IMG/VR virus record: IMGVR_UViG_3300019487_000024
Location: 36,410-100,409 of that record
Length of the DNA: 64,000 bases
Reading direction: 5' to 3' (one strand)
Source: a virus
Positions 12,984-44,920 of this stretch are shown piece by piece. How positions within the stretch are numbered: the first letter of the stretch is position 1; the number at the start of each line of letters is the position of its first letter. Below the pieces are notes generated by a model, which did no database searches, was not told the DNA's origin, and saw only the letters and a program-made list of their open reading frames with translations. Position numbers and translations under genes: made by a program.

Positions 12984-13666
12984 AAGTAATCGGAGTTGGC
13001 GGATATGCCCGTTGTGGCAAGGATACCTTCGTTAGCATTGCGAAGAAGATTCTCACAAAGAACAATTACGAACCCCTTCGTGTGGCGTTCGCTGATACTT
13101 TGAAGAATGAAGTTCAAGCCATGTTGAAAGTCAACGACTTTCCGCTCGATGTTTACACCACCGATACAGTGGAAAAGACAAAAATTCGTCCGTTGCTTGT
13201 TTGGTGGGGTTGTGCGAGACGAGATTTGAGTGAAGATGGACTGTATTGGGTAAACGTAGTGGACAAACAACTTCGGTCGGTGAGTGCTACCGATTCAAGA
13301 GACGATGTTATTGTCTTGGTTTCTGATGTACGGTTCCCAAATGAGGCGGCGTGGATTCACAAGAGTTGGGGTGGAGAAGTGATTCATTTGAAACGCTATT
13401 CTGTCCATTGTAGTGCTTCGCCGGTATTTGATCCGGCGACTAAGACTTTTGGAAACTCCGCACCAATCAAGACATTTGATCCCGCTCCAAACGAAGAAGA
13501 ATCCAAAAATGATCCACTCGTTCAAGCAGTTGCAGACGTTTCCGTTTCTTGGGAAAGTCGTGGGATTCCTGCCGGTGGATGCGTTACCGAAGACACATAT
13601 CTTCAAGAGCAAGTTTTGAATGCTCTCAATTCTACTGGAGCATTTAACGGGAAACTATCACTATAA
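12980..13666 (+). CDS. Deoxynucleoside monophosphate kinase
   Basis: 228 aa. The P-loop GYARCGKDT (8-16), the FADTLKNEV segment and the downstream SDVRFPNEA motif are typical of phage dNMP kinases (T4 gp1 family), which phosphorylate dNMPs to dNDPs. It works with NrdJ and dUTPase to feed replication. Start/stop overlap (ATGA) with the gene before. It converges on the minus-strand block, overlapping the next gene by 23 nt tail-to-tail. Confidence 0.85.
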   Translation: MKVIGVGGYARCGKDTFVSIAKKILTKNNYEPLRVAFADTLKNEVQAMLKVNDFPLDVYTTDTVEKTKIRPLLVWWGCARRDLSEDGLYWVNVVDKQLRSVSATDSRDDVIVLVSDVRFPNEAAWIHKSWGGEVIHLKRYSVHCSASPVFDPATKTFGNSAPIKTFDPAPNEEESKNDPLVQAVADVSVSWESRGIPAGGCVTEDTYLQEQVLNALNSTGAFNGKLSL

Positions 13667-13937
13667 GTTGTCCAGCTTCGGTGTAAAAGATGAGTTGCCT
13701 GTCTGTTGTCTTAGATAGGAACTCGTTTTTTAGTCTTGGGACAATGTGTCTGGCTCCATCCAAGTAAAGCTTGGAGCATACAGCATAGAGTTTGGCTTTG
13801 TCTTCTTTTCGGAAGCAATTACAATCAACCGCATAGTCATTGATGCAGTTAATGAGTTGTGTGAAGGTGCTATCCAACCTTGATAATTCATGTGTGCTCA
13901 AGAACCGAGCAAACTCAGTTGGATTTCGGAACTCCAT
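13644..13937 (-). CDS. Hypothetical protein
   Basis: 97 aa. An N-terminal helical region and a central Cys pair (DCNCFRKEDK) are visible, with no recognised family. It is the last gene of the 31-kb minus-strand glycan block and follows a membrane protein gene by 3 nt. Confidence 0.6.
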   Translation of the reverse strand: MEFRNPTEFARFLSTHELSRLDSTFTQLINCINDYAVDCNCFRKEDKAKLYAVCSKLYLDGARHIVPRLKNEFLSKTTDRQLIFYTEAGQLIVIVSR

Positions 13938-13940
13938 GCG

Positions 13941-14291
13941 TTACCCCAACAATTTGTCTATGACTGCGTAGATGAACAGTCCTCCCAAGATCACAAGTGG
14001 TAATTGTGCAAACACCCCGATGGAAACCAAGAAGCCTTGAACACAGCACACCAATAAGCCTAGCCACACAGACAGACAAATCGGACAGCTAATCAAACGT
14101 ACGAAGAAGCAGTTGCGGTGCCTTAGAAGGTAAAGACGGTAGGTTAACGACACATCGTTGTATTTCTTATCGTCGTAGTCCTTGTAAAAGGATATAAAAT
14201 TGAGTCTCAGTAGGCGGCAGTATTCCACCCAAGCATCGGTTCTGAACCAAATCAGAAGGAGAAGACCTATAATGGAGATAGACAGTAACAT
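13941..14291 (-). CDS. Small membrane protein with CPIC motif (DUF1360-like)
   Basis: 116 aa from the ATG at 14291. There is an N-terminal transmembrane helix (LLSISIIGLLLLIWF), a basic cytosolic stretch, then CPICLSVWLG leading into one or two further hydrophobic segments. The CPxC-into-helix pattern matches small DUF1360-type membrane proteins seen in phages and bacteria. Function unknown. A TATTTATT element sits 4 nt upstream of the start. Confidence 0.7.
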   Translation of the reverse strand: MLLSISIIGLLLLIWFRTDAWVEYCRLLRLNFISFYKDYDDKKYNDVSLTYRLYLLRHRNCFFVRLISCPICLSVWLGLLVCCVQGFLVSIGVFAQLPLVILGGLFIYAVIDKLLG

Positions 14292-14295
14292 CAAC

Positions 14296-14303
14296 AATAA
14301 ATA
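14296..14303 (-). promoter_or_regulatory. TATTTAT-type element before a minus-strand gene
   Basis: Minus-strand TATTTATT ending 4 nt before the ATG at 14291, the same close spacing as at 58079 and 53394. Confidence 0.4.
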
Positions 14304-14306
14304 TCC

Positions 14307-15578
14307 TCAAAGGATAGTAAAGTTGATGTCGTCTATGGGAGGATTTTTTACAATCAGGCTGTCCTGAATGTGGTTTGTAATGCGATTGATGGTAAGAACT
14401 CCGTTGGCACATTCATACTGCCCCGGTTCGGCAGTGTGAATTATGTCATTCAGGTGAAGAATTGTTTGGTCGGTGAAAACATTCGGAGCGGCTTTGGAAA
14501 AATCCAAGTCCAATACGATTTCATCGTCAATTGCCGCCTCCACAAAAACATCTTCATCCAGTCGGTAATACTTTTTGTAAAGCTCCCATTGTAGCTGGTT
14601 AATATCCAAGAGTTGATTTGCAAACTCATGAAGTTGCTTCAATGATGCTTGAAGATTCTGTCGTATTTCTGGATTATCAACGAAAATCCGGCTGAAACGA
14701 AAGTGGTTTTGAAAAATTCCGCTTGCATCATTCCACTTCACGTTTTTGAGGTTTGCTGCTACGGGATATTTGTATTCCTTTGTGGCGTCAAATGCGGTGT
14801 CGTGTTTGAAATGTGGCCACTTTCGTAGAAAGCGAGTCATTTCTACCGTATCGGCTTGTTGTTGAAGCTGTGTGCGTGCTTTTGCCTTCTCAGTCCACCA
14901 TTCAATGCCACGAGAAGATGTGCAAGTGAAGTGATATACAATGGCATTCCACACTTGGTCAATTTTCACGCCCTTCATGGTGAAGCGATATAACAAGTCT
15001 GAATCTTCACGAGACCGGCGAAAGAAAGTGTCATGTCCCCCAATGTCCAACCAATCCTTTTTATACAAACTGAAGGGAGCAAACCAAAATTGGGTCACTC
15101 GGTCGGACTTTTTCTGCTCGGCAAACTTGGAAAAAGCATCCAAGTCAAATTTTTGAGGGTCTAGCCCGAAATCATGGGTAATTTTCTCTGGAGAAGGAGG
15201 ATGAAGCGGCGGTTCAATGCGGGTAGAGGAAACGATTCGTCCGGGAGCCAAATGCTTGCCCAATTCTAAATCATAAAGCGGTCCTATAACCATGTCTGAC
15301 TGCAAATACGACACAAAGTCCGTCTCAGCCATCTCAAACATCAAATTGATGTTTCGAGCATATCCAATAGGGACCGGAAGCGGGTTTATTATAACCTTCA
15401 GGTTAGGAAAGTGCTCTTTTTGAGTCTTGAGAAATCCAACGGTATCTTGATTGTCGTTTTCTACATAAACCAAGATGGGGTGGTTTCGGTGGGAGAGGTT
15501 TTTATAAAGAGAACGAAACAACAACTCTATGTGATGCCGTTCGTTCCTTGCTGTATTGATACAAAATGTGATGTTCAT
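14307..15578 (-). CDS. Family 2-like glycosyltransferase
   Basis: 423 aa. The GT-A fold is seen in the N-terminal half: NTARNERHHIELLFRSL nucleotide-binding start, GYARNINLMFE, and a QSDM segment (about 114-117) in the DxD position. The remainder is a helical C-terminal domain with no recognised acceptor signature. It overlaps the upstream epimerase gene (ATGA). It probably adds a sugar made by the neighbouring enzymes; donor and acceptor are unknown. Confidence 0.78.
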   Translation of the reverse strand: MNITFCINTARNERHHIELLFRSLYKNLSHRNHPILVYVENDNQDTVGFLKTQKEHFPNLKVIINPLPVPIGYARNINLMFEMAETDFVSYLQSDMVIGPLYDLELGKHLAPGRIVSSTRIEPPLHPPSPEKITHDFGLDPQKFDLDAFSKFAEQKKSDRVTQFWFAPFSLYKKDWLDIGGHDTFFRRSREDSDLLYRFTMKGVKIDQVWNAIVYHFTCTSSRGIEWWTEKAKARTQLQQQADTVEMTRFLRKWPHFKHDTAFDATKEYKYPVAANLKNVKWNDASGIFQNHFRFSRIFVDNPEIRQNLQASLKQLHEFANQLLDINQLQWELYKKYYRLDEDVFVEAAIDDEIVLDLDFSKAAPNVFTDQTILHLNDIIHTAEPGQYECANGVLTINRITNHIQDSLIVKNPPIDDINFTIL

Positions 15579-16441
15579 GCCAATGCTTCCACCATTCGCT
15601 TAATTCCGGCATCCATACCAATCAGGTTTAGGTTTTGACTTCTAAGTCTTCCACCGTCACCCGTGTAAGGATGGTCTTTTTCCACTTGCTTAACAACAAC
15701 ATTGATTGGAACGTTCATTGCCTTGCAAATCTTCGCACCAACGTCGGCAAGGGTTTCTTTATGCCCCATGTCTTGTTCATAAACCAGATTCATGTGACAA
15801 AGCTCTTTAGAGCGAGTTTTCAAAACGTGATCTATGACGACAGCAACATCATCCACAAAAAAGAAATCCATCTTCTTGTTTTTTTCAATCTCAATCGGAA
15901 GTCCTTCCTTTAGGCGAAGGATTGATCGCTTGATAAATCGAAAGTCGGGTTCATCTGGACCAAAACATCCAAACAACCGAAGAAGATATGGTTCGGACAA
16001 TTCCACTTCATCTTCGTTGTACTGTCCCATGCCCAAGGCTCGCTTTGCTATTATGTTTTTGGAGAGTCCGTATAAATCAACCGGCCAAGACTTGTAAAGT
16101 TCTTCTTCGTCCACTTGGTCTATATCAAAGCGTCTGTCAAATTCTGCCCCCGAACCAATAATGATGGTTGGTCTGTAATCATCAATCCAAGTGAGGACTT
16201 CATACATTTTGATGTTGTCCACAAAATCTTGATGTTGGTTTTGGGATGCAAAATGACCTTTGAATCCGGTGTGGACGATAGCAGTTGGGCAATGCTTATT
16301 GAGATACATCATGCATTTCCCAAGGTCGGTCATGTCCAATTCTTGACGGGTTGGTGCCAGAACATCATGCCCAAGACTTCTAAGAGCACGGGCGACGTTT
16401 CGACCAACAAATCCTCCCCCACCAGTGACTAATGTTCTCAT
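15575..16441 (-). CDS. NAD(P)-dependent SDR, GDP-fucose-synthase (WcaG)-like
   Basis: 288 aa. The Rossmann motif GGGGFVG (7-13), DMTD, and the YGLSKN active-site region (Y..SK) define an extended SDR. Overall length and APTRQELDMTD near the N-terminus resemble GDP-L-fucose synthase or GDP-6-deoxy-heptose reductase (WcaG/MlghC type), which reduce a 4-keto sugar after epimerisation. With the GMD-like dehydratase (28551) and RmlC-like epimerase (23636) it would complete a 6-deoxysugar pathway. The substrate is inferred. Confidence 0.75.
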   Translation of the reverse strand: MRTLVTGGGGFVGRNVARALRSLGHDVLAPTRQELDMTDLGKCMMYLNKHCPTAIVHTGFKGHFASQNQHQDFVDNIKMYEVLTWIDDYRPTIIIGSGAEFDRRFDIDQVDEEELYKSWPVDLYGLSKNIIAKRALGMGQYNEDEVELSEPYLLRLFGCFGPDEPDFRFIKRSILRLKEGLPIEIEKNKKMDFFFVDDVAVVIDHVLKTRSKELCHMNLVYEQDMGHKETLADVGAKICKAMNVPINVVVKQVEKDHPYTGDGGRLRSQNLNLIGMDAGIKRMVEALA

Positions 16442-16914
16442 TTTACAAGGTTCATGTAAGACGGACGACCGTTGAACAGGTAATGGTGCAGCAAATTTTG
16501 CATATCAACCTCGGTGGTCGGCTTGAATAATACCAAATTCTGAAAAGGAGTCAACACCGAAATATCTTCTTCTGCCCAATGGGTATATCCAAGGTATCCG
16601 TAGTCACGATCACGCCCTCCACCGGCAATTTTGATGGGCAAAGACTCGTATTGCATGAAGTTTCGGATGAATTCAAACGGACGAAAGACTGCAAATGAGG
16701 AAATGGAATAGCAAACTGGAAGTTTTCCTTCCATTGCCATACCCGCTGCACAAGCAATCATCAATTGTTCGGCTGAACCTACGTTAAAAAAGCGATTTGG
16801 ATAGGTATCACGAACTTTGTCCCATAAACCATAGCCCATGTCGGCAGTGATAAGCACGATGGAATCGTTCTCACCCATCTTTGTCAGTAATGCGTCAGCA
16901 AATGCACGTCTCAT
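16438..16914 (-). CDS. Transketolase C-half: pyrimidine-binding domain only
   Basis: 158 aa from the ATG at 16914. The open frame extends further upstream only because it overlaps the nuclease gene. VLITADMGYG, FNVGSAEQLMIACAAGMAMEG and the following segment are the Transketolase_pyr domain; the motif around SAEQ carries the Glu that activates thiamine diphosphate. The usual C-terminal transketolase domain (about 120 aa) is absent, unlike the second pair at 26852. It is paired with the N-half at 17703 but separated from it by a homing-nuclease gene whose TGA overlaps this ATG. Confidence 0.8.
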   Translation of the reverse strand: MRRAFADALLTKMGENDSIVLITADMGYGLWDKVRDTYPNRFFNVGSAEQLMIACAAGMAMEGKLPVCYSISSFAVFRPFEFIRNFMQYESLPIKIAGGGRDRDYGYLGYTHWAEEDISVLTPFQNLVLFKPTTEVDMQNLLHHYLFNGRPSYMNLVK

Positions 16915-17639
16915 AAAACTTGATATATTAAAGGAATGGTATGAACTCCTCGTTTGAATTTTCTCCAATCATTCTCCCAAATATATTTTACTTTGTACCC
17001 AAGAGATTTCATTTTGGTTAGTTTCTCGTATGTTTTCTTTAACAAGATTCCATATTTCAATTTGGTGTCAGGATTTAGGTCTGTTTGTTTGTATATTTCG
17101 GGATTTCCGTGCCAATAATCACCAAGAAATTCATAAACCGTATTGTTTTCCCGATCATATCCATCCACTTTCTTCTTTTTCCATTTTGGAAGCGAGTAGT
17201 TTGTAGTTTTAATTCCCATCCACAATAAAAAGTCACGTTCAAGTCTTGAAATTTTATGTAAACAAGTAGGACACTTACTACCACGCAAATGATGATATGG
17301 ACTTTGAATAAACGTGCCATGTTTATGACAGATTATTTTTACCTTGTGGTGAGAATGAATATAGTTGACCTTAGAATAATTATATTCATTTTTATGAACT
17401 TTGTTTGCCTTAGTTATAAATTCATAGTTTGAATACAAATATCTTCCGGAACATTTGATACAACCTTTCCCCATTAAATGGTCATTTGGTCTTTGAGAAA
17501 ACATGTGTTGACATGCATTACATTTAATGTCCACTTTTTCTCTGCTTGATTTGTACAACACATGAGAATAATCATATTTTTTGCCATGAATTTTTATGGC
17601 TTTTTCGATAAATTCTTTTGTGTTAGAAAACTTTGGCAT
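16911..17639 (-). CDS. Homing endonuclease with DUF723-type repeats, inserted between transketolase halves
   Basis: 242 aa. Two repeats of about 60 aa (FIEKAIKIHGKKYDYSHV ... and FITKANKVHKNEYNYSKV ..., each with CxxC ... CxxC zinc pairs) match the DUF723 DNA-binding repeats of phage homing enzymes. The C-terminal part (VYEFLGDYWHGNPEIY ... VKYIWENDW) looks like a Vsr/PD-(D/E)XK-type nuclease core. The gene is A/T-richer than its neighbours. It fills the gap between the two transketolase genes almost exactly, leaving both intact. It probably spreads by cutting alleles of this locus that lack it. Confidence 0.8.
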   Translation of the reverse strand: MPKFSNTKEFIEKAIKIHGKKYDYSHVLYKSSREKVDIKCNACQHMFSQRPNDHLMGKGCIKCSGRYLYSNYEFITKANKVHKNEYNYSKVNYIHSHHKVKIICHKHGTFIQSPYHHLRGSKCPTCLHKISRLERDFLLWMGIKTTNYSLPKWKKKKVDGYDRENNTVYEFLGDYWHGNPEIYKQTDLNPDTKLKYGILLKKTYEKLTKMKSLGYKVKYIWENDWRKFKRGVHTIPLIYQVL

Positions 17640-17702
17640 TACAATGGTTCCATTTATCCAAGTGAGTTTTTACGAAAACTTCCTTACTATCTTTGAATAA
17701 TT

Positions 17703-18344
17703 TTACTTCAGAATTTCAAGTGCAACTGCATATTCTTCCGGGCACATTATTTTGTAGTGAGCATTTTGACCTTTGAGAAACGAAAATTCCTCAGTAGCTT
17801 GTTGTGTGTCTCCAATGCAGGCAATGTTTCCGATGGAAAATGCTGCCAAACGTTTTTGAAGCTTATCATATGGGATTTCGCAATATGCTCCATATCCATT
17901 ATGAACCACGTAAACCTTGATGTTCTTCACGGGATGGTCCGCAATGAATCGAAGGGCTTCCCAAATGACTCCTTCGGCACATTCGCCATCACTTACCATC
18001 ACATGCACGCCACGATTGGGGTTTGCAAGTGCCCGACCTACAGCGGCGGCTAATCCCATACCCAAACTTCCCGTTGAACACCAAAGATGATTCGCTTCGT
18101 CCAGATGTGGGTGCCCGCCATGCTTCTTGAACAACTCCTCAGCATTATGTCCGTGATGTTTTTCCAGCACGACGTATTGTGCCAAAGAAGCATGTCCGTT
18201 AGAAAGGATGAAAATGTCATCCACAGGCTTGTTTCTGAAAATCCAGTCAATGATGTCCACACAGGACAAATAGCTCCCCAAGTGAGAGAGTTTGTTCTTG
18301 TAGGCAATCTCAATGATGCGTTTCTTTAGGTCTTTGTTTACCAT
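17703..18344 (-). CDS. Transketolase N-half: thiamine diphosphate-binding domain
   Basis: 213 aa. SNGHASLAQYV, GGHPHL, STGSLGMGLAAAVG and the ThDP motif GDG-like SDGECAEGVIWE ... VVHNGY are diagnostic of the transketolase N-terminal domain. The GDG is SDG here, a conservative change. Together with 16438 it would form a split transketolase-like enzyme that moves two-carbon units onto or from a sugar. The bacterial split enzymes of surface-sugar clusters are usually of this kind. It overlaps the SDR gene upstream by 7 nt. Confidence 0.83.
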   Translation of the reverse strand: MVNKDLKKRIIEIAYKNKLSHLGSYLSCVDIIDWIFRNKPVDDIFILSNGHASLAQYVVLEKHHGHNAEELFKKHGGHPHLDEANHLWCSTGSLGMGLAAAVGRALANPNRGVHVMVSDGECAEGVIWEALRFIADHPVKNIKVYVVHNGYGAYCEIPYDKLQKRLAAFSIGNIACIGDTQQATEEFSFLKGQNAHYKIMCPEEYAVALEILK

Positions 18345-19315
18345 ACGAAATTCTTCTTGTAGTATTCCACAATCTCAGGAAGTTTTTGATCTAGGGAACA
18401 TTGATTCTTCCACCCAAGCTTTTTCAGCTTACTATCATCCAAGCTATAACGTACGTCTTGTCCGTCACGGGAATATGTGAAGTCACAGAATTCCAACAAT
18501 CGGTCCATGTCGTTGTCGGGATTGAAATCAACGGTTGACGGATGGAACGTGAGAGCATAGACCTTCTTCACAATGTCAATGTTGAAACATTCTTCTGGAC
18601 CGGAAATGTTGTAAATTTCATTCGTCACACCGGCATCAATGATGGTCATGACAGCATCGGCAGTGTCTTGAGCATGAAGCCATACACGTCTTGGCGATCC
18701 TCCATTGTGCAATGGAACCTTGCTTTCCAAATGAAAGCACTTGCATGTTTTTGGAATGAGTTTTTCGACGTATTGTCCAACACCATAGTTGTTCGTGGGT
18801 CGGACAATAACATACGGAACCTTGAAAGTCCGTGCCCAAGCGAGAATCAACATGTCAGCCGCAGCTTTCGTAGCCGAGTAGGGATTGCTTGGCTTCAACA
18901 AGTCGGTTTCCGTATGAGACCCCGATTCAATGTCTCCATATACTTCATCGGTACTGAAATGAAGCAGGGTGGGCATCTTTAACCGTTTGGTACGGATAAG
19001 ATCGAGAAGGTGCTTTACTCCATTGACATTTGAGTGAAGAAAGGCATCGCTGTTGGTTATGGAATTGTCAACGTGGCTTTCGGCGGCAGTATTGATGACA
19101 TAATCACAATCATAGAGGCTTTCCAAATTGCAAATGTCTTCCTTGATAAACTTGAAGTTTGGACCGTAGCAATGAAAGTCAATCAATCGGTGTGGTTGAG
19201 CCGCATAGGTTACTTTATCGACGCCAATGACATACCACCCACGACGAAGGCAGGCTTCGGTCACATAGGCTCCGATGAATCCAAGGCATCCCGTAACGTA
19301 AACGATTTTTTTCAT
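18338..19315 (-). CDS. Sugar-nucleotide 4,6-dehydratase, RmlB-like SDR
   Basis: 325 aa. GCLGFIGAYV (Rossmann), AAESHVDNSI, STDEVYG, YSATKAAAD and RPTNNYG are the hallmark motifs of dTDP-glucose/CDP-glucose 4,6-dehydratases. The catalytic Asp/Glu pair (S-T-D-E) and YxxxK are present. It makes a 4-keto-6-deoxy sugar nucleotide that the 3-dehydratase-like enzyme at 19966 could use. The nucleotide carried by the substrate cannot be read from sequence alone. Confidence 0.87.
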   Translation of the reverse strand: MKKIVYVTGCLGFIGAYVTEACLRRGWYVIGVDKVTYAAQPHRLIDFHCYGPNFKFIKEDICNLESLYDCDYVINTAAESHVDNSITNSDAFLHSNVNGVKHLLDLIRTKRLKMPTLLHFSTDEVYGDIESGSHTETDLLKPSNPYSATKAAADMLILAWARTFKVPYVIVRPTNNYGVGQYVEKLIPKTCKCFHLESKVPLHNGGSPRRVWLHAQDTADAVMTIIDAGVTNEIYNISGPEECFNIDIVKKVYALTFHPSTVDFNPDNDMDRLLEFCDFTYSRDGQDVRYSLDDSKLKKLGWKNQCSLDQKLPEIVEYYKKNFVW

Positions 19316-19318
19316 AAC

Positions 19319-19969
19319 TTATTGGTAGTTGGCTTCCAGCTCTTCCTGCGTATAAGTATAAGGCAGTTTCTTCACAAACACTTGCCATCCACCATGCAAA
19401 ACTTGAGTGTGTCCGTCATACGCTGTAAGAAAACTGTCCACGGCGAGCTTCGGCTTCTGCTTTTCGTCTGTAGTATGAGCACCCCATCCATAATCATCAA
19501 AAATCAGGATGCCGTTGTCCTTGAGGATGTACCAAGCGAGCACGGCATCTTGCATAACATCAATTGCCAAGTGAGAGCCATCAATGTAAACATAGTCGGC
19601 GAACCCTTTGGTTTGACCGTTATGAGTCAACGAACGGAGAACATCGTAGGAGCTTCCCTTGATGAAATGGATGTTGGGGAAGGAACCAATGTTATGGCGA
19701 AGGCATTCGTTATCATTGATGTCAATGGCATAGTGAACGCTTCCCGGACCATTGGCAATTCTCTGAGCACAAAACACGGCACAGTCGCCATGCAAGACTC
19801 CAATCTCAACACCAACCACGTTTGGTCTGCCTGCAATGAAGGCAAGATGGTTTTGCCAGTCGGGAATCCACTTCTCAAAGAAATTTGAGCCGAAGAACCC
19901 TTCGGGGCGTTTCATGAAGGCTGGATATGTGTAACTTGTGATGTCTCGTTTAAGTGTGTATTCGCTCAT
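19319..19969 (-). CDS. Class I SAM-dependent methyltransferase-like protein
   Basis: 216 aa. VVGVEIGVLHGDCAVF (motif I, E-x-G), YAIDIND (motif II acidic) and DYVYIDGSHL followed by LKDNGILIFDDYGW match the Methyltransf_24-type enzymes common in surface-polysaccharide clusters. It probably O-methylates a sugar. Overlap of 4 nt with the aminotransferase-fold gene upstream. Confidence 0.75.
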   Translation of the reverse strand: MSEYTLKRDITSYTYPAFMKRPEGFFGSNFFEKWIPDWQNHLAFIAGRPNVVGVEIGVLHGDCAVFCAQRIANGPGSVHYAIDINDNECLRHNIGSFPNIHFIKGSSYDVLRSLTHNGQTKGFADYVYIDGSHLAIDVMQDAVLAWYILKDNGILIFDDYGWGAHTTDEKQKPKLAVDSFLTAYDGHTQVLHGGWQVFVKKLPYTYTQEELEANYQ

Positions 19970-21321: not shown

Positions 21322-21322
21322 A

Positions 21323-22270: not shown

Positions 22271-22689
22271 AGTTTCTCTAAAAGTTTGCTTGAAGCATAC
22301 AACTTTGGAAGAGAAATTGCAACATATTTTATTCCCAATTCTTTACACAATATGACTTCAGCAGACTCGGCGTTGATTCCTACACGGTCTCCGCTGTTAA
22401 AAAAATACATCTCGTCATCAGGAAACTCTTTCCTGACCTTTTTTATACTCTCACAGACCGTTTTGTCCTTGTCCACAGAAATCCACGCCTCGCTAATCGG
22501 TTTGAGGGTCGCAACGATGTTTCGGCGGTGATCTTGGTCCATGAACACTCTGGAACCCTTGACCGTTACTTGATGGTCATTATTTATGATAGCAATTAAG
22601 TAATTGCATTGATCCTTGGCGGCTAGGAAGTACTGAATGTGCCCGTAGTGCAAGGGATTGAAATAACCCGATACGATTCCAATTTTCAT
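22267..22689 (-). CDS. Small nucleotidyltransferase of the HxGH (TagD/HldE-C) type
   Basis: 140 aa. SGYFNPLHYGHIQYF contains the HxGH signature (HYGH). The late ISxx-type segment is replaced by the YFFNSGDR stretch. It transfers AMP or CMP to a phosphorylated sugar or alcohol. Its ATGA overlap with the GHMP heptose kinase (22686) suggests the two act in sequence, as kinase then nucleotidyltransferase, to activate a heptose or related sugar-1-phosphate. Confidence 0.78.
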   Translation of the reverse strand: MKIGIVSGYFNPLHYGHIQYFLAAKDQCNYLIAIINNDHQVTVKGSRVFMDQDHRRNIVATLKPISEAWISVDKDKTVCESIKKVRKEFPDDEMYFFNSGDRVGINAESAEVILCKELGIKYVAISLPKLYASSKLLEKL

Positions 22690-33655: not shown

Positions 33656-33656
33656 A

Positions 33657-36255: not shown

Positions 36256-36971
36256 TTGAAATGGTCTTGAAAATACGTCAAGTCTTCAGGAGTGCCAAGA
36301 CCCCACATTTTATTGATGTGGAATATCTTCACTTTCTTTCCATCGCCGATTGCTTCATTATACACCGGAGCCACATAGAACTCGTTGTTAACTCGCACGT
36401 TCTTGGCAATCATTTGTTCGGCATACTTGACATAATCCGAACCTTTGCTCCAATAATAAATTCCAACTGTGGCTTCGTTACTAATGACTTCCTTTTCCTT
36501 CACTTCTGTCACGAATCCATTGTCATCCAATCTCACATAGCTCCACTTAGGATGGCTGTTGTTGAAGGTAAGAATACCACCATCAATCTTGTCTCCTTGC
36601 ATGGAATACATGAACTTATTCCAATCGAAATTTTCAATATATTGGTCTGAATTTGCAATTAACAATGGTTCATCATTATTGATGAATTTCTTGGCGAGTA
36701 GGGTTGTGCAAGCAGCACCCTCAGTTAAATGGTCAACCTCAACGATATTACATTTAGCGATTCTGTTTAGCAATTGTTTGAAATGATATTGCTGAGTATG
36801 TTCTTTTCTGACTATAAATGTATGAATGGCGGGAATACCAAGGTTTTCAACAACAACTTGTATCATTGGTTTATCATTAAAATTCTTAACAGCAATCAAA
36901 GGTTTTGGAAAAGAATAACCTGCCTTTTCAAACCTACTGCCTGCTCCTGCACATGGTATTAAGACTTGCAT
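36252..36971 (-). CDS. Sugar-1-phosphate nucleotidyltransferase
   Basis: 239 aa. The LIPCAGAGSRF signature (G-x-G-x-R), FPKPLIAV (catalytic Lys region), ANSDQYIENF (in the place of the usual D-G-D) and a C-terminal GLGTPEDL define a short NTP_transferase of the RmlA/HddC type. It would activate a sugar-1-phosphate, for example the product of the GHMP kinase at 22686. It overlaps the HAD-HNH gene by 13 nt. Confidence 0.82.
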   Translation of the reverse strand: MQVLIPCAGAGSRFEKAGYSFPKPLIAVKNFNDKPMIQVVVENLGIPAIHTFIVRKEHTQQYHFKQLLNRIAKCNIVEVDHLTEGAACTTLLAKKFINNDEPLLIANSDQYIENFDWNKFMYSMQGDKIDGGILTFNNSHPKWSYVRLDDNGFVTEVKEKEVISNEATVGIYYWSKGSDYVKYAEQMIAKNVRVNNEFYVAPVYNEAIGDGKKVKIFHINKMWGLGTPEDLTYFQDHFK

Positions 36972-38155
36972 ATTTGTTTCTTTAGTCGTTCAAGTTCAGT
37001 TTTTGTTTCTTGCCACAATTGATAAAAGTCGTCACCATGTCCGGGATGATGTTGTTTTGTGGTCAACAGTTTTAGATTTTCTAGGCGATTGTCATCTTTT
37101 TTTCCATTCTTATGGTGGACAATCTCATGTTTTTCGAGTGCTCGGCGTAGATGAAGCGACATAACTAATCTATGTTCAAAAACATATTCGGGTTTTCCTT
37201 CACTTTTCCACGAAATCTTGTGGGCTATTTCTTTTTGTTCGTATGGTAATTCGGAAACATTTAATACAACGTATCCATGTGTGGAACGTTTATTTGGGTT
37301 GTATAAAATGTGTTTTTTTCCATGTTGGAATGCAGACGGACAACAAGATTGACATTTTCCCGTGAATACTCCTTTTTGAATTTGAGTTATAATGTTGTGA
37401 TTATTGACGAATCTTGATGTATTGCAGGATGGACATAAAACTGTTGATTGGTAATGTCCTTTGGCTTGATTGGAATTTTTTTGAAGAAGCAATTCTGAAA
37501 ATTGAGAATACTTCTGCATACATTCATAAAGTTTATTGATAGCCTCAATAAACCGCCCCACTCTTGTCAAATTGACATCGGAGGGAGACTGTATAATCAT
37601 TACTTCCGCTCCACTATTCGTGGCTGCGGCGATACCGTTAGGAGAGTCTTCCAAAATCAAAACTTCAGATGGTTGAAGGTTCAAAGTCCGAATAGCCGAA
37701 ATATAAATCTCTGGATTTGGTTTTGGTTGTTGGACTTGTTCGTTTGTTAAAACAATGTCAAATATATTTGCACAGTGTAATTTTTCAAGAAGAATGTTCG
37801 TTGTTTTTTGAATACTATTTGTGCAAAGTCCAACTTTCAATCCTCGATCACGCAAATTACAAATAACCTTTTTTATTCGGCTGTCACATTTGATATTTGC
37901 AAGTAATTTTTCAGTTAGTTCTTGTTTTCTATGTTCTATTTGAGAATTCCATTCTGATGGAAGTCCTTTGTATAAGTTTAGAAATTCGAGTTTTTTCTTC
38001 GTGGATAATCCTTCGTAGGTTTTCGTTTGTTCTGAGGGAGTGATGACATATGACGAGGAATACTCTGATAGTGCATAATTCAATGCTGTAAAGTGGAGTT
38101 CTTTTGTTGAAGAAATCAATACTCCATCAAGGTCGAATAAAATGGCTTTAATCAT
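36959..38155 (-). CDS. HAD phosphatase fused to an HNH endonuclease
   Basis: 398 aa. Residues 1-215 form a complete HAD-superfamily phosphatase: FDLDGVL (D8, D10), LCTNS (about 110-114), KPNPEIY with the Lys, and EDSPNGIAAA (169-178). It resembles beta-phosphoglucomutase/phosphoglycolate phosphatase. Residues 238-398 carry zinc pairs (C241/C244, C268/C271), then an HNH nuclease-like end with EHRL (H328), HHKNGKKDDNRLENLKLL (H347/H348, N360). The nuclease part looks like a homing enzyme attached in frame to the 3' end of the HAD gene. The phosphatase could serve the heptose pathway (GmhB-like role). Confidence 0.85.
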   Translation of the reverse strand: MIKAILFDLDGVLISSTKELHFTALNYALSEYSSSYVITPSEQTKTYEGLSTKKKLEFLNLYKGLPSEWNSQIEHRKQELTEKLLANIKCDSRIKKVICNLRDRGLKVGLCTNSIQKTTNILLEKLHCANIFDIVLTNEQVQQPKPNPEIYISAIRTLNLQPSEVLILEDSPNGIAAATNSGAEVMIIQSPSDVNLTRVGRFIEAINKLYECMQKYSQFSELLLQKNSNQAKGHYQSTVLCPSCNTSRFVNNHNIITQIQKGVFTGKCQSCCPSAFQHGKKHILYNPNKRSTHGYVVLNVSELPYEQKEIAHKISWKSEGKPEYVFEHRLVMSLHLRRALEKHEIVHHKNGKKDDNRLENLKLLTTKQHHPGHGDDFYQLWQETKTELERLKKQICKS

Positions 38156-38213: not shown

Positions 38214-38930
38214 TTATTTGAATACCGAATGTCCTTGATTTTCTGCTTGGGTGAAAACTTGATTGTATCTCAAATTGGTTTTGACTTGAGTCTCAATAGT
38301 TTTGTCATGATAGAGAGCATATTCTTCGTCTTGTGGCAAACAGACATAGGTAAGGTATCCTTCAATTTTCTCGTGCAGTCTTCGGTTGAAACTGATACGA
38401 GGATACTCTCGTTTGAATATGCGAAATTGAAAATCCGGGTAGTTCACCACAGGACGCTTGAAAGTAGGAGAAACAGTCAGCTTCCAACCCCATTGGGCTG
38501 CGTGTTGTGGAGTAACTCCCCGGAAATCGTTTATGCGTGGAACGGCATAGGCTTCCATCGTTGGATTTGCCTCAAGAAGAGCGTGGAGATTCTCTCCTAT
38601 TAAGGCATCGGGAGGATATTCGTCTCCATCTATCTGGAAAATGAAGTCTCCCGACGATCTTTCTATACCAAAGTTCTTGTGGGCACCGTAATTGCGGTCT
38701 AATGGATGTTCGAGAACCTTGCAGGTTTTCTTTTCAATCATCTCATAGCCCATTTTGACGGCAAACTCTGAGAGAATGTTCTTTGTCTCTTGGTTATCCT
38801 TCGCCTCACTGTCAATCAATACAATCACTTCGTCGTCAGAGTTTTTGACGACCGTGCCGACGATGCTAAGAAGTTTTCTCAGCGTATCCGTCTCTGTACT
38901 AACAGTTATTAAGTACGATACTTTTGGCAT
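38214..38930 (-). CDS. GT2 glycosyltransferase (WaaE-like)
   Basis: 238 aa. SYLITVSTETDTLRKLL, VLIDSEAKDNQET, RNYGAHKNFGIERSSGDFIF, then QIDGDEYPPDAL (DxD at about 100-102) and FKREYPRISFNRRLHEKI are those of the WaaE/KdtX-type GT2 enzymes that add a sugar to LPS core. The 5' end overlaps the nuclease gene upstream by 32 nt, without damage to the reading frame. Confidence 0.82.
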   Translation of the reverse strand: MPKVSYLITVSTETDTLRKLLSIVGTVVKNSDDEVIVLIDSEAKDNQETKNILSEFAVKMGYEMIEKKTCKVLEHPLDRNYGAHKNFGIERSSGDFIFQIDGDEYPPDALIGENLHALLEANPTMEAYAVPRINDFRGVTPQHAAQWGWKLTVSPTFKRPVVNYPDFQFRIFKREYPRISFNRRLHEKIEGYLTYVCLPQDEEYALYHDKTIETQVKTNLRYNQVFTQAENQGHSVFK

Positions 38931-39618
38931 AACTAAAATTGGATTTGTCCGGTATTCGTATGAACTTACACTTGAGAAGGGCTTTTATGTTTTCTTCACG
39001 AACAATGTCTTTTTTTACCCGCTCTTTGTTTTTGAAATGGTGTGTTCTTTCATCCCACTCAATTACCATGTTTTTTGATGATTCGTAGTAATCTACCCAA
39101 TATCCATATTCAGATATGTAGAACTCACCACCATTTAAGGCATGAACGCCATTCCATCCCATTTCCGAGTTCAAATAATCAAAAAACTGACAGGCAAGTT
39201 TGTTGTAGTTTGGTCTATACTTTCCATCATTTCCCATCAACATTCGCATCTTTCGTATTGACTCCGTTCTTTTTCTGATACATTCTTGTCCTCGTTCTGT
39301 TTTGTGAAAGTTAATCAATGCAGTTGAATGGGATTTTCTTCGTGCATTAGACCACACTCTTCCTAAATTATAAGTGTTTCCTGTATTTACTCTTTTGAGA
39401 GTTTCCAAATTTGCACATGGTTTCCCTTTTCTATGACTTCTATTACCACTATGAGCACAACTTTTACATGGATGGTTATATTGTTTTGCTCTCCACAAAT
39501 TTTGTGATGAAGAGTATTCTACAACTCTATTACAATCTGGACAATTTCTGCTCCATCTCTTTTTGTTTGTAGTATTTTTTAAGTTTGTCTCGCTTGATTT
39601 TTTTACTATGTCGGTCAT
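38899..39618 (-). CDS. Putative homing endonuclease, zinc-ribbon plus Vsr-like core
   Basis: 239 aa. The N-terminal zinc site (CPDCNRVV ... HPCKSCAHSG) is followed by a NUMOD3-like segment (NLGRVWSNARRKSHSTALI). The C-terminal part (GYWVDYYESSKNMVIEWDE ... CKFIRI, shown in part) resembles a Vsr/PD-(D/E)XK-type nuclease core with Asp/Glu residues in the right order. A/T-rich compared to the flanking glycosyltransferase genes. It overlaps the start of the GT2 gene downstream and a small frame upstream, consistent with late insertion. Confidence 0.72.
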   Translation of the reverse strand: MTDIVKKSSETNLKNTTNKKRWSRNCPDCNRVVEYSSSQNLWRAKQYNHPCKSCAHSGNRSHRKGKPCANLETLKRVNTGNTYNLGRVWSNARRKSHSTALINFHKTERGQECIRKRTESIRKMRMLMGNDGKYRPNYNKLACQFFDYLNSEMGWNGVHALNGGEFYISEYGYWVDYYESSKNMVIEWDERTHHFKNKERVKKDIVREENIKALLKCKFIRIPDKSNFSYAKSIVLNNC

Positions 39619-39730: not shown

Positions 39731-41350
39731 TTACAGAAGTTGGAATGTCTCTTCCAATGTTTTTTGAATATCAATTATGGGCATTTCTGTATTAAACATC
39801 ATCTTAGATGCTTTCACATTAGATAGATTTGAATCAAGTCGGCTCATAATTATAGTTTTCCCTCGCAATTGTGAAGCTATATCCTTCAAATTTTCAAATT
39901 TGATACTTTTCTTTTCTTCTCCTGTATTTTCAAATTTTATATTTACGGGAGACTTGTTAATAGCAACAATGGTTGTTTGGGAAGTTTCTTTTTCCTTAGC
40001 AGGTTCGGCCTGTTTGATAGGAACATTCTGTCCATTTGGAGCAGTTGCTCCCGGCAAGTTCAGCTTCTTCAATTTCGGAAGAACTATGGTTTGTTCTGTG
40101 GCGAACTTTGGAACATACTTGTCCAAAAGAGGATGAAAAATCTTGTCCATTGCCTCGTTGCTGAATTTCTCAGCGTTTTCGGCACGAAGCTTTTCAGCAT
40201 CTTCCAGAATCTTGCCGTTGTAATTGTTGAAGTAATGCTTCATCTTCAATTGGGCAGCGGCATAATCCACATCAAACCAACGAGCATCCTTCACAAACCA
40301 ATCGTTAACCGCTTCATCTGGAATTGGAACCAAGTTACCTTCAAAGAACTTGGCATACTTAGGATTCAAGAAATCCAAGTGCCCGCTCCAATTTGGAGCA
40401 AGCAACGGCTTACCACTCAAGGTAGAAAGCAACAGCGGATGCCCATAGCCTTCGCCGTGAGTAAAGCTGGCATGAACCTTGACCTTATCGTGGTTGAATA
40501 AGGCATTCATTTCCACGTCATCAAGCTCTCCGTGGAGAAGATAGACGTTTGGTAGGGTTGCGTTTGGAAGTTGTGATTTGACCATGTTCGTTACGTCGTT
40601 GATCTTGTTGATGCAATCGTAACGGTCCATAATGCAAATTTGTGCTCCGCTCGTCTTGAGAACCAAGCAGGGAGGATTCGAAACATTGGCAAATGCTTTC
40701 AAGAAGGTTTCAATCAAATGTCCGATAGCCTTTCGGTCAGCACGCATGTTTCCGTTCGTCCATTGACCGACAAACAAGAAGGCAAATGACTCTGGAATGG
40801 ATTGCAATGCTTCTTCCACAGATGCAACCTTTTCGTCGGTCTTTTTGTAAATGCGAGTGTCGGCTCCCCACGGAACAATTTCCATAGGAGTGCGAACAAC
40901 CAATTCTTCTGCCGCACCATTGGGAAGTCGTTTGTTGTAATTTGCGTGAGCAAACACGTCCTTGACGTGCTTGGATAGAACAAAGTTCACATTCATGCGG
41001 TTCAATCCCTCAATCCATTCTGGGCGTGGAACGGTAGTCTCAATACCAGCAGTCATTCCGATGTTGAACTTGGCGGGATTGGCATATTCATTCGGAATGG
41101 TCATTTGAATGAAGACTTCTGGTTGACGAGACAATGGACCTTTGAGAATCTTGTCCAATAGTGCCTTGCCTTCGGGGTCTCTTACTTCCGAGTCCAAATT
41201 CTTCTTGCTGCAAGCACCCCAAACTGTCGGGGCAATGTGCAAGTCAAACTTGTCGTAACGATAAAGACTCTTGGCAACAGATAGTGCCCAATCGCCATAA
41301 CCAGAACGGGTCCAAATAGGACTTTGTAATACACAGATAGGTTTGCTCAT
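39731..41350 (-). CDS. GT4-like glycosyltransferase with C-terminal extension
   Basis: 539 aa. Residues ~1-410 have the GT-B order: SGYGDWALSVAKSL, VPWGADTRIY hinge, FLFVGQW, and the donor-site region HASFTHGEGYGHPLLLSTLSGKPLL (E-x7-E type). Residues 415-539 are Pro/Lys-rich, then a repeated VNIKFENTGEEKKSIKFENL segment; the role of this extension is unknown. Paired in the block with a second GT4 gene at 42225, separated by the dUTPase. Its closest neighbour genes suggest DNA- or virion-glycosylation rather than capsule synthesis, but this is not shown. Confidence 0.8.
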   Translation of the reverse strand: MSKPICVLQSPIWTRSGYGDWALSVAKSLYRYDKFDLHIAPTVWGACSKKNLDSEVRDPEGKALLDKILKGPLSRQPEVFIQMTIPNEYANPAKFNIGMTAGIETTVPRPEWIEGLNRMNVNFVLSKHVKDVFAHANYNKRLPNGAAEELVVRTPMEIVPWGADTRIYKKTDEKVASVEEALQSIPESFAFLFVGQWTNGNMRADRKAIGHLIETFLKAFANVSNPPCLVLKTSGAQICIMDRYDCINKINDVTNMVKSQLPNATLPNVYLLHGELDDVEMNALFNHDKVKVHASFTHGEGYGHPLLLSTLSGKPLLAPNWSGHLDFLNPKYAKFFEGNLVPIPDEAVNDWFVKDARWFDVDYAAAQLKMKHYFNNYNGKILEDAEKLRAENAEKFSNEAMDKIFHPLLDKYVPKFATEQTIVLPKLKKLNLPGATAPNGQNVPIKQAEPAKEKETSQTTIVAINKSPVNIKFENTGEEKKSIKFENLKDIASQLRGKTIIMSRLDSNLSNVKASKMMFNTEMPIIDIQKTLEETFQLL

Positions 41351-41568
41351 ATTTCTAATTCTCTTGGTTCAACTCCAAAATTGTCTTTCAACAGCTTGAA
41401 CACATTGGTCAAGCATTCATCGCACAAGTGAACTTCTACACCAGTCAAGTCGTGGGAACTTCCATACCAACTTGCTGTTTTGAGTTCGGAAAAGCATTCT
41501 CTTTCAGGATGTTTATCACAGAGATACTTGGCATCTTCCAAAACTCCTTGTGTGATCACTTTCTTCAT
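41347..41568 (-). CDS. Small Cys-containing protein
   Basis: 73 aa. Possible zinc ligands: YLCDKHPERECF and HLCDECL. The overlap (ATGA) with both the GT4 gene and the dUTPase gene means it is translated with them. No recognised family. Confidence 0.65.
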   Translation of the reverse strand: MKKVITQGVLEDAKYLCDKHPERECFSELKTASWYGSSHDLTGVEVHLCDECLTNVFKLLKDNFGVEPRELEI

Positions 41569-42155
41569 TGTCCTTGCTTTTCCTTCATTTCTTCGCTGTA
41601 ACGCTTCTTGATAGGAATCCCACCGCCCTTGTTGTAAAGTTCGGTAATAGATGCTCCCGGAATTCCTTCCACGATGGTCTTGAAGGCATTCAGTGCTCCA
41701 TCAGCAGTAGAAACCTGTGGAACTGGTTTCTTGACATCGGTGCTTCCAAATCCACCTTCGGAACGAACACTTGCGGGAAGTTCTTCGGCATCTTGGAAAC
41801 CAGCCGCCGTGTAGTTCTCAAAGATGATTTGAGCAATCTTATCTCCCACGGCAATCTTCTTATCGACATTGCCAAGATTGATAAGGATAACACCTACGTC
41901 GCCACGATAATCTTCATCAATGACTCCTGCCATTGTATCAAGACCGTCTTTGTAAGCTAGACCACTGCGAGGAGCAATGCGTCCATAAAGACCAGAAGGG
42001 ATAGCGACTGAGATTCCAGTTTTGAAGAGTTTTCGTTCAAGCGGCTTCAACGTGTATTCTTCAATTGAATACAAGTCATAGCCTGCCGCAAAGTCACTTC
42101 CACGAGTAGGAGTCTTTGCTAACGGATTCGTTTTCTTGATCGGAATTGTAACCAT
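41565..42155 (-). CDS. dut: dUTPase with C-terminal extension
   Basis: 196 aa from the ATG at 42155, chosen because the sigma70-like promoter lies immediately upstream; the frame is open further. Motif 1 AGYDLYS, motif 2 PRSGLAYK, motif 3 GVIDEDYRGDVGV, motif 4 (GDKIAQIIFE) and motif 5 GGFGSTD are all present. It hydrolyses dUTP to dUMP. About 65 residues follow motif 5, which is normally the C-terminus, so the extension is unusual. It works with NrdJ and the dNMP kinase. Confidence 0.93.
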   Translation of the reverse strand: MVTIPIKKTNPLAKTPTRGSDFAAGYDLYSIEEYTLKPLERKLFKTGISVAIPSGLYGRIAPRSGLAYKDGLDTMAGVIDEDYRGDVGVILINLGNVDKKIAVGDKIAQIIFENYTAAGFQDAEELPASVRSEGGFGSTDVKKPVPQVSTADGALNAFKTIVEGIPGASITELYNKGGGIPIKKRYSEEMKEKQGQ

Positions 42156-42168
42156 AAGTTTGCCCACA

Positions 42169-42197
42169 ATACTATCAGAACTTATCCAATAGTGCAA
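42169..42197 (-). promoter_or_regulatory. Sigma70-like promoter for dut
   Basis: Minus strand: TTGCAC (42197-42192), 17-bp spacer, TAGTAT (42174-42169). The dut ATG follows 13 nt after the -10 box, leaving a leader of only about 6 nt. Confidence 0.65.
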
Positions 42198-42224: not shown

Positions 42225-43715
42225 TTATACCAAGACTGCATCCGCTCGTTTTTGAAGAGCATCCTTGTCAATCTTGGGAATTTCAAAGCCCATGCCATCT
42301 TTCATTGTGTTGCCGACATAATCTTTGACCGAGAACACACTGAACTTCTTGGGCTTCGTCCAGTTCTTGAAAACGTATTCCATGCCAGTGATGAAAGTCT
42401 CACCCATGTTCTTGGCATTCAATCCACCTTCGCCAAGTGCCCAATCACGACCTACTTGACCGCACTTGGTTCGTTTTTCGTCGCCCATAAGATACCAATA
42501 CATGAATCCCTCAGCACAATCTTCCCACTTAGCCAAGTCATCAAAGATGTAAGGCGTAGGAATGCTTCCTTGAATAAGACGAGTTACCGGCCACACAGGA
42601 TATGCCCATGCACCACACGTTTTATACTTTCCAACATTGTTGCTGCCAAAGTCAGCAGAGAACTCCACGGGCTTGCCTTCGTCGTCCACCTGACCAATTT
42701 GATCTTGAAGACCACCCGTGACCGTAGCAATGATGGGCGTGCCGCACATGATACTTTCCGCAATGGAAAGACCAAATCCTTCGTTGGAAGAAAGATTGAC
42801 TGTTACGTCGGCAACGTTATACATCAAATTCATTTCTTGAGGAATTAACTTGCCCGGTGAGAAGATGATGTTATATTCGGGGCAAAGAGCTTCCTTGACA
42901 GCCAATAGATTGGTGCCAGCTTCGTGCATGATTTCGGTGTGAAGAACCAAAGTGCATTGAGCAGCTTCTTCTTTTGGCAGGTTGTCGCAGAACTGACGAT
43001 ATGCCAACATAATGTTGCTCGTGCGTTTGCGATGAACGTTGCGGCTGTTATAGAAGATGACGAACTTGGCTTCTTTCTTTCCATTGAATAGACGCTTCTT
43101 GAATTCAACCAATTTTGGGTCGTCTTTTGCAATCGGGAAGAATGTCTCAGCATCAATTCCATGCGGAACATAATGTATCAAAGAACGTTCGTTCATCGGT
43201 CCTTCGTCATTCACGGTGACACAGTTCTTTGGAGACAAGACATATTTGTTGATGTTCATCGTCTGCTTACTGATTGAAAAGAGAGCGTCGCAGCTTTCAT
43301 AAAACGGACGATTGTACATTGGGTATGGCACGTCATCCCAAATGTTCAAGTAAGTCAGTGGCATGGCAGAACGCACTTGTTTTTCCAGTGCATAGAGCCA
43401 TCCCCAAAAGCGAGGGTCGGTAAAGTGAAGAATGGCATTTGGCTTTTCCATAGCAATGACTTGGAAGAGCAACTGCTCATTGCCATATCCGTCAATTGGA
43501 TACAGCTTGACATAGGCATCCTTCATCTTTTTCAGTTCATTGGTGGACTGAGAAAGATCGAATACCTTTCCTTTTTCTGGATGGCTAATGGCACCGGCAA
43601 GCTGACACCAGTCATACTTGTGAACCGTGCTAAGAACCAACTCACGGGACATCGTTGCGATGCCCGAATTCATACGAAGATCATCCGACAGAAGAAGAAT
43701 TTTTGGCTTTGCCAT
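42225..43715 (-). CDS. GT4-like glycosyltransferase
   Basis: 496 aa. GT-B signatures: LSDDLRMNSGIATMSREL (N-terminal donor/acceptor loop), VPHGIDAETFFPI hinge, FVIFYNSRNVHRKRT and NLSSNEGFGLSIAESIMCGTPIIAT (E-x7-E, with E and E spaced as in GT4 retaining enzymes). The ATG has a strong AAAGAAAGG ribosome-binding site. The start of the minus-strand string of large glycan genes after the small regulator gene at 43744. Confidence 0.87.
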   Translation of the reverse strand: MAKPKILLLSDDLRMNSGIATMSRELVLSTVHKYDWCQLAGAISHPEKGKVFDLSQSTNELKKMKDAYVKLYPIDGYGNEQLLFQVIAMEKPNAILHFTDPRFWGWLYALEKQVRSAMPLTYLNIWDDVPYPMYNRPFYESCDALFSISKQTMNINKYVLSPKNCVTVNDEGPMNERSLIHYVPHGIDAETFFPIAKDDPKLVEFKKRLFNGKKEAKFVIFYNSRNVHRKRTSNIMLAYRQFCDNLPKEEAAQCTLVLHTEIMHEAGTNLLAVKEALCPEYNIIFSPGKLIPQEMNLMYNVADVTVNLSSNEGFGLSIAESIMCGTPIIATVTGGLQDQIGQVDDEGKPVEFSADFGSNNVGKYKTCGAWAYPVWPVTRLIQGSIPTPYIFDDLAKWEDCAEGFMYWYLMGDEKRTKCGQVGRDWALGEGGLNAKNMGETFITGMEYVFKNWTKPKKFSVFSVKDYVGNTMKDGMGFEIPKIDKDALQKRADAVLV

Positions 43716-43743
43716 AGTGATGTAACCTTTCTTTGGGTGGGGA

Positions 43744-43947
43744 TTAAGCTAACGAGGAAGATGTTGCAGAAACGGGAAGAACGAAACTGTTGATTTCGTC
43801 TCGGAACGTGTCTTCGTTGACATAACGATAGACAGTTTTTTCTACAAGACCTTGCAATGTAAGCTTATGGCGAATGCCGAGAATCTTGAACTGATCGTAC
43901 AAAGTGTGCTCCACTTTGACTGTTGTTGCGACTTTTTTCGTGCTCAT
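43744..43947 (-). CDS. Small ribbon-helix-helix-like regulator
   Basis: 67 aa. The N-terminal STKKVATTVKVEHTLYDQFKILGIRH (shown in part) has the beta-strand-helix-helix pattern of RHH/Arc-type DNA-binding proteins; the rest is short and ends with Ser-rich residues. It lies directly upstream of the first GT4 gene and may control the block. Dimerisation and DNA target are unknown. Confidence 0.65.
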   Translation of the reverse strand: MSTKKVATTVKVEHTLYDQFKILGIRHKLTLQGLVEKTVYRYVNEDTFRDEINSFVLPVSATSSSLA

Positions 43948-44023
43948 ATATGTAAGTATCCGCTTATCTACGGGAATACATATAGTGATTTTTCCGAAAA
44001 AGTCGAGCGATTTGTTTTTTTAT

Positions 44024-44920
44024 TTAGAAGATAACTGCGTCCGCCACACCATCACATTTTTTGTTCTTCAGGTATGGGCAATACTTGCAGTTCTTCTTGT
44101 TTTTGCCGGGGATTTTGGGGTAGGAAATGGTTGTGTTATGCTGACCTTCAGTTGTGAAACAGGTGTCAACAAACTTGCCAAATTCTTGAATGACTTGAAG
44201 AACATCCGATTGAAACGAGCTTGGCTTGAAAACTTGGAGACGAGACTGAGCATATTGGGCGTTCTCGTAAAGCTTCCGCTTCAAGATGATAAATTCAACG
44301 TTGATCTTGGTGAGTGGAATGTTGTTTTGTTTGCTATACAAAGCCTTGTAAAGAACCAATTGGCTTGTCTTGGTGAAATCTTCCTTCTGAGTATTCGTCC
44401 AACCGTTAGTACTGGTTTTGAAGTCAATGATACGAATGTTGCCCGTGGCTTTCTCACGCATTACCAAGTCCAGCTTGCCATTGAGCATGACATTGTTACG
44501 AATCTCAACATTGAGTTCATCTTCAATCGCCAGAAGTTCCCACTTCGCCCGTGGGAAATGCATGAGAATGTTGGCGGGGTCAAGAAACTCGTTCAAGATG
44601 TTTTCTCCATCTTCAACGAAGCCATCAAACTCTGGTTGGGTGAATGGAATCTTTTTCTTCTCAACTTCCTTTTTGAAGGCAGCAACGAAAAACTCCTTGT
44701 TGTCAATCTTCTTAGCCGCCTCTTCACTCTCATGAAAAAGGACTTTCAGATAGTTTTGGACAGTTTCGTGGATGGCAGTTCCGAAAGACATAATGAGGTT
44801 GTCCTCAAACTGTTTTTCGTGGAGAATGTAATCTCTATACCATTTGTGGGAGCAAGTGAACCAATTGGTGAATTGAGAAAAACTTACTATCTTCTTCTTT
44901 TTCTTGACTTCTTCGCTCAT
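44024..44920 (-). CDS. PD-(D/E)XK nuclease with Fe-S cluster cysteines (Cas4/RecB-like)
   Basis: 298 aa. Nuclease motifs: GTAIHE (H51), GKLD (D151), IIDFKTS (D166, K168) and SQLVLY (Q187, Y191). Cysteines C23 plus C278, C281 and C289 near the C-terminus form the pattern of 4Fe-4S nucleases such as Cas4 and AddB. It probably acts as a 5'-3' exonuclease or end-processing enzyme in phage recombination or replication. It is divergent from the signal-peptide gene at 44971. Confidence 0.87.
   Translation of the reverse strand: MSEEVKKKKKIVSFSQFTNWFTCSHKWYRDYILHEKQFEDNLIMSFGTAIHETVQNYLKVLFHESEEAAKKIDNKEFFVAAFKKEVEKKKIPFTQPEFDGFVEDGENILNEFLDPANILMHFPRAKWELLAIEDELNVEIRNNVMLNGKLDLVMREKATGNIRIIDFKTSTNGWTNTQKEDFTKTSQLVLYKALYSKQNNIPLTKINVEFIILKRKLYENAQYAQSRLQVFKPSSFQSDVLQVIQEFGKFVDTCFTTEGQHNTTISYPKIPGKNKKNCKYCPYLKNKKCDGVADAVIF

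Follow-up and report, generated by a model that had tools for sequence, protein, structure and literature searches.

A 64,000-nucleotide stretch (the window; positions 36410–100409) of the 100,409-base virus record IMGVR_UViG_3300019487_000024, the remainder of which we also read, carries an island of sugar-related genes of about 30 kb (14307–43715, minus strand), mostly overlapping and in operon-like order. We give an even chance to the explanation that this is a phage glycosylation island, in which fixed glycosyltransferases at the ends would act in the cytosol, adding sugars to something the phage makes (a virion protein being the likeliest candidate), and exchangeable sugar-building cassettes between them would decide which sugar is used. 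Eight known or probable glycosyltransferases are joined by three gene sets, A (21323–29507), B (15575–21450) and C (32881–38155). An earlier note on this DNA had drawn the glycan block from 13644 to 44920; the minus-strand island is present, but its true extent is smaller, 44024–44920 (minus strand) being a PD-(D/E)XK nuclease (PF12705, 72 bits), a syntenic anchor rather than a sugar gene. The record encodes a tail sheath, a DnaB-like helicase, a ribonucleotide reductase, a T4-like family B DNA polymerase (PolB) and a clamp loader, and the sheath, the replication genes and the relatives of the polymerase together identify it as a contractile-tailed phage. By polymerase, the nearest annotated phage is Microcystis phage Mel-JY01 (40%), with a 368,758-base virus record, G002, closer still (54%, same surroundings). 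No DNA-level relatives were found in the phage collection, and psbA, a sign of a cyanobacterial host, was found in none of 16 records.

Set A is built around heptose-type enzymes. Its Cj1427-like short-chain dehydrogenase/reductase (SDR; 21323–22270) has 51% identity to Campylobacter Cj1427, a guanosine diphosphate (GDP)-heptose C4-dehydrogenase, and matches structure 6VO6 at 324 bits (next structure, 81), indicating a nucleoside diphosphate (NDP)-heptose C4-dehydrogenase. Alongside it stand a small nucleotidyltransferase (HldE-C/TagD-like, 22267–22689; PF01467, TIGR02199 42 bits), a GHMP sugar-1-kinase (22686–23639; NF049969 130 bits against an equivalog cut-off of 600) whose best structure matches are HddA-type kinases (4N3O, 112 bits), and an RmlC-like C3/C5 epimerase (23636–24151) whose top match, 8DCO (106 bits; RmlC 104.5), is a GDP-4-keto-heptose 3,5-epimerase. 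The ColD-like, pyridoxal phosphate (PLP)-dependent C3-dehydratase (24148–25326) matches ColD 2GMS at 150 bits and scores 190.9 against the RfbH equivalog, under its cut-off of 423. It carries His-His in place of the lysine, a pair at least 95% conserved in the ColD-like family collected from 103 loci; because ColD has the same replacement at the aminotransferase lysine site, the enzyme is expected to strip a 4-keto sugar of its C3 oxygen. Mixing Cj1427 with a C3-dehydratase in vitro yields GDP-3-deoxy-4-keto-heptose (PMC10680097). Since the module encodes both enzyme types together, NDP-3-deoxy-4-keto-heptose is, to judge from the genes, a probable intermediate.

These genes form a recurring module. 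Searching with the ColD-like protein recovered 105 module loci, 68 viral and 37 bacterial, counts in which near-identical contigs are not merged (103 loci gave 81 different ColD-like sequences). The conserved module comprises the HddA-like kinase (near the ColD-like gene in 62/68 viral and 29/37 bacterial loci), the Cj1427-like C4-dehydrogenase (60/68 and 31/37), the ColD-like C3-dehydratase and a radical S-adenosylmethionine (SAM) enzyme (58/68 and 21/37). Bacterial loci occur in Pelagibacter, a betaproteobacterium, Bradyrhizobium, Cohaesibacter and others, and the same clusters hold HddC-like genes (23 of 37) and GmhA (12 of 37), which supports a heptose substrate. In G002 eight Set A genes occur together in a changed order, so that Set A is a real unit beyond chance. 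Among 50,697 phage records we found no close module relatives, the best being 33% for the Cj1427-like, 38% for the ColD-like and 23% for the radical-SAM protein. A quick tree of the ColD-like family, with some long branches, groups the window protein with six other viral sequences and needs three virus/bacterium changes, at least two of them forced by well-supported branches, from which we conclude that viruses acquired the ColD-like gene repeatedly or that it was exchanged. No published report of the module was found in the literature searched, most subscription papers lying outside its coverage.

The two transketolases of the earlier note are there as split thiamine diphosphate (ThDP) pairs, in Set A at 27790–28554 (N-terminal, ThDP half; PF00456, with a GDG...N motif) and 26852–27859 (C-terminal half; PF02779, PF02780) and in Set B at 17703–18344 and 16438–16968. 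Among the module loci in which a ThDP pair is seen, 11 viral and 10 bacterial ones have the transketolase type, against 33 and 11 with the E1 type; the two types share none of the 105 loci, and loci L041 and L020, alike in gene order, differ in which type they carry. The note had cast the transketolases as suppliers of sedoheptulose-7-phosphate. As an E1-type pair occupies the same slot and is not expected to form that compound, we disfavour this role and regard two-carbon transfer to a ketone as more likely. For alphaKADH2 and split-gene transketolase pairs, keto-sugar branching has been shown or proposed (PMC12247030), and by analogy the ThDP slot probably adds a two-carbon branch to a keto sugar, the slot exchange being what supports carboligation. 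A very short two-subunit E1-type enzyme (about 199 plus 176–181 residues; L086:7907-9033, L106:7865-9006) turns up often in the module loci of viruses and Pelagibacter.

Missed earlier was the B12-domain radical-SAM enzyme (25316–26848; PF04055, PF02310), in whose family the CxxxCxxC motif is invariant. Its best family score is to HpnJ (104 bits, far under the cut-off of 577.6), an enzyme that makes a cyclitol ether out of a hopanoid bearing glucosamine (PMC12583986). The AlphaFold model (pLDDT 91.5) has as its top fold match the sugar diol dehydratase AprD4 (TM-score 0.67, 18% identity); dehydration, ring closure and C-methylation are all candidate reactions. The G002 orthologue (L009:15737-18265) is an 843-residue frame interrupted, just before the third cysteine of CxxxCxxC, by what looks like an intein with an HNH domain.

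Taken in sequence, the main cassette (21323–28554) would begin with the HddA-like kinase phosphorylating a host heptose phosphate at C1, followed by activation to NDP-heptose, with GDP, ADP and CDP as candidate carriers. The Cj1427-like enzyme would oxidize C4, the RmlC-like enzyme may epimerize C3/C5, and the ColD-like enzyme would deoxygenate C3; the split ThDP enzyme would then extend the C4 ketone by two carbons. Further alteration would fall to the radical-SAM enzyme, and a reductase may finish the pathway. We tentatively suggest, while considering it rather improbable, that the product is a new class of 3-deoxy, C4-branched NDP-sugar (C9 or larger), maybe a carbocycle closed by the radical-SAM enzyme, that varies the virion glycan. 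The same chemistry could underlie bacterial caryose (3,9-dideoxy-4,8-cyclo-nonose) or bradyrhizose. Several observations weigh against the pathway drawn for the main cassette. The kinase, the epimerase and the 36252 nucleotidyltransferase all score under equivalog cut-offs, which leaves room for a different sugar. GmhA, which the note had suggested looking for outside the window, was not found in the record, nor was any SIS_2 domain in 30 virus records, and a GmhB-type enzyme was not recognized in the island; GmhA activity may be supplied by the host. Finally, 40 of the 105 loci (about 40%) show no visible ThDP pair, some of them being cut off by the edge of the contig.

The claim of at least eight glycosyltransferases stands provided that weakly supported genes count. 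Hidden Markov model (HMM) support is found for a two-domain GT2 plus GT11 protein (30367–31905; PF00535 45.9 and PF01531 78.8 bits), a GT2 (38214–38930; PF00535 36.6 bits) and a GT4 (42225–43715; PF00534 46.6 bits; 47% to Flavobacterium phage immuto, 45% to Mel-JY01). Below cut-off or by homology come the enzyme at the far island end (14307–15578; PF00535 19.7 bits, below cut-off; 32% to an immuto glycosyltransferase, 31% to G002), a GT10-like protein (29504–30442; PF00852 22.8 bits against a cut-off of 23.9) and 39731–41350 (phrog_2170; 38% in Mel-JY01 and immuto). Homology or inspection identifies a probable GT-B enzyme (31898–32923; 52% to G002, 22% to an annotated immuto mannosyltransferase) and, from its translation and lacking HMM support, a probable GT-A enzyme (35563–36255). 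The nuclease followed by relatives of 42225, 39731 and 38214 keeps its order in Mel-JY01 and immuto (38214 is also syntenic in G002), and a 14307-like glycosyltransferase ends the immuto island, whereas the genes between these conserved glycosyltransferases differ in both phages from those here. This synteny around differing contents is best explained if the transfer enzymes are constant, the sugar cassettes are swapped, and the target is made by the phage. In G002 the 42225 orthologue lies inside an 880-residue open frame (L134/L137, G002:215872-218472), where the match breaks in two around residue 310, which suggests another in-frame insertion.

As to where the sugars go, the note's finding of no Wzy, Wzx or exporter holds for the whole record and the 369-kb relative: families of Wzx, Wzy, ABC-2 exporters and initiating transferases had no match in the record or G002, both of which may be incomplete, and predicted transmembrane segments number at most three in any protein of the 100-kb record. 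This counts against the strongest competitor to a phage acceptor, namely that the sugars remodel host O-antigen or capsule against superinfection by way of the host's flippase and polymerase. Such a role has been proposed for lipopolysaccharide-type genes of pelagimyophages (PMC7029224), and surface glycans are probably the use of the bacterial module copies; the conserved glycosyltransferases are, on the other side, common to phages of cyanobacteria and Flavobacterium, hosts in different phyla, and we judge host remodelling possible but unlikely. Virion glycosylation is known in mycobacteriophages, according to a passage of PMC12619734 that cites such work, and a phage product, with a virion protein favoured, remains in our view the most likely acceptor. 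The note had allowed for either a phage product or DNA, and its phage-directed role is retained. Attachment to DNA bases, by contrast, we consider very improbable. A dUTPase (41565–42197, not a sugar gene) does lie between two glycosyltransferases, a deoxynucleoside monophosphate kinase-like gene (12980–13666) sits just outside the island, and 42225 has a weak GT4-conflict match. DNA is the less likely target because no thymidylate-synthase-family hydroxymethylase was found in this record and five related ones, in a search confined to that family.

The remaining alternative concerns the sugar itself. The note had read the enzymes as GDP-6-deoxy-heptose synthesis, with the GMD/RMD-like SDR (28551–29507; 4-reductase or 4,6-dehydratase) as the 4,6-dehydratase and the transketolases feeding it. 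Campylobacter-type heptose chemistry survives in the Cj1427-like, HddA-like and RmlC-like enzymes, the kinase and epimerase are heptose-like, and C. jejuni HS:5 makes a natural 3,6-dideoxyheptose by C3 dehydration after a 4,6-dehydratase (PMC10440746). The SDR itself matches the GDP-heptose 4,6-dehydratase 7US5 at 160 bits but is closer to the reductase RMD (2PK3, 185 bits), and relatives occur in only 9 of the 68 viral module loci, so that it falls outside the core and its standing as a 4,6-dehydratase is doubtful. With a C4-dehydrogenase as the conserved oxidizer and the transketolase slot open to E1-type enzymes, the 6-deoxy pathway appears improbable. A 3-deoxy heptose fits the conserved module better, since its core pairs a C4-dehydrogenase with a C3-dehydratase.

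Compared with the C. jejuni GDP-heptose pathways (HS:2, Cj1427 type; HS:5), the phage module shares the C4-dehydrogenase, an HddA-like kinase and 3/5-epimerase-like and C3-dehydratase-like enzymes. It differs in natively joining the C4-dehydrogenase and C3-dehydratase, combined elsewhere as an in vitro mixture, in adding a ThDP pair and a radical-SAM enzyme, and in lacking GmhA, GmhB and a clear HddC. Large clusters with SDRs, a kinase, a nucleotidyltransferase and glycosyltransferases have long been known in T4-like cyanophages (P-SSM2/S-SSM7 and Synechococcus phage Bellamy), where no product has been assigned to them and 'stuffer DNA' has been considered (PMC3037559). Bellamy shares with the island the kinase (28%), the NTP transferase (39%) and the 32881 protein, whereas close Cj1427-like, ColD-like and radical-SAM relatives were not among the phage records above. 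The Mel-JY01 and immuto islands hold other sugar genes in their variable part, with the 3-deoxy-heptose module not seen. The alphaKADH2 and split-gene transketolase systems likewise place a two-subunit ThDP enzyme in a deoxy-keto-sugar gene set; here the companions are heptose-type enzymes, the carriers are phages and Gram-negative bacteria, and branching is a prediction. Phage sugar clusters are a known kind; here a defined module, its catalytic motifs intact, recurs in viruses that are unrelated and in several bacterial phyla. It offers a concrete reaction sequence for assay and predicts a natural source of 3-deoxy-heptoses, which have been obtained in vitro from mixed enzymes. The cultured phages immuto and Mel-JY01 offer a place to look for what the conserved glycosyltransferases modify.

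The second cassette (15575–21450) would lead to a 3,6-dideoxyhexose analogue. It encodes a WcaG-like SDR (15575–16441; PF01370 81 bits, no equivalog) that is a candidate 4-reductase, an RmlB-like NDP-hexose 4,6-dehydratase (18338–19315; TIGR01181 280 bits against a cut-off of 365), a methyltransferase (Methyltransf_24, 19319–19969; PF13578) and the 3-dehydratase RfbH (19966–21450; NF011936 427.7 bits, over the cut-off of 423). RfbH has histidine in place of lysine, and both DegT-type dehydratases (19966 and 24148) carry HH at the PLP-binding lysine site. Canonical RfbH [2Fe-2S] cysteines follow C-X57-C-X-C-X7-C; here C233-X57-C291-X-C293 is present, with the fourth cysteine at another spacing. 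The second ThDP pair has an N-domain half with SDG replacing GDG (PF00456) and a pyrimidine-domain half without the C-terminal domain (PF02779), three relatives of which span 283–343 residues. Between these halves lies a homing-endonuclease-like gene with a DUF4379 zinc finger (16911–17639; PF14311 38.7 bits), a relative of which is found in L002.

Set C, partly common to Bellamy, holds some unassigned genes together with the protein at 32881–33519 (phrog_34507; 51% to Bellamy), a methyltransferase (33657–34388; PF13578), a cupin (35265–35585; PF07883 21.5 bits against a cut-off of 27.2), a sugar-1-phosphate nucleotidyltransferase (36252–36971; PF00483 44.7 bits, under all NCBIfam equivalog cut-offs) and a beta-phosphoglucomutase-like HAD phosphatase with a C-terminal HNH extension (36959–38155; PF13419, PF13392). 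The nucleotidyltransferase scores 35 bits to HddC and 44.5 to RmlA; 22267 belongs to another family, and no NTP_transferase was found in relatives save a sub-threshold match in G008. With these genes, profile scores bear out the inventory first drawn up for the island: a kinase, two nucleotidyltransferases, a HAD enzyme, an RmlC-like epimerase, two His-type DegT dehydratases, methyltransferases and SDRs.

Homing-endonuclease-like genes or extensions occur within the island at 16911–17639, 36959–38155 and 38899–39618, the last an unassigned zinc-finger-like gene beside the GT2. At the island end, 13941–14297 encodes a small protein with three predicted transmembrane segments (46% identity in G002). 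Upstream of the tail sheath gene, L001:905-4021 carries three consecutive paralogues of about 335–360 residues that start 'DSGAPxLxGxxGSL..LDAVLVNGYG'.

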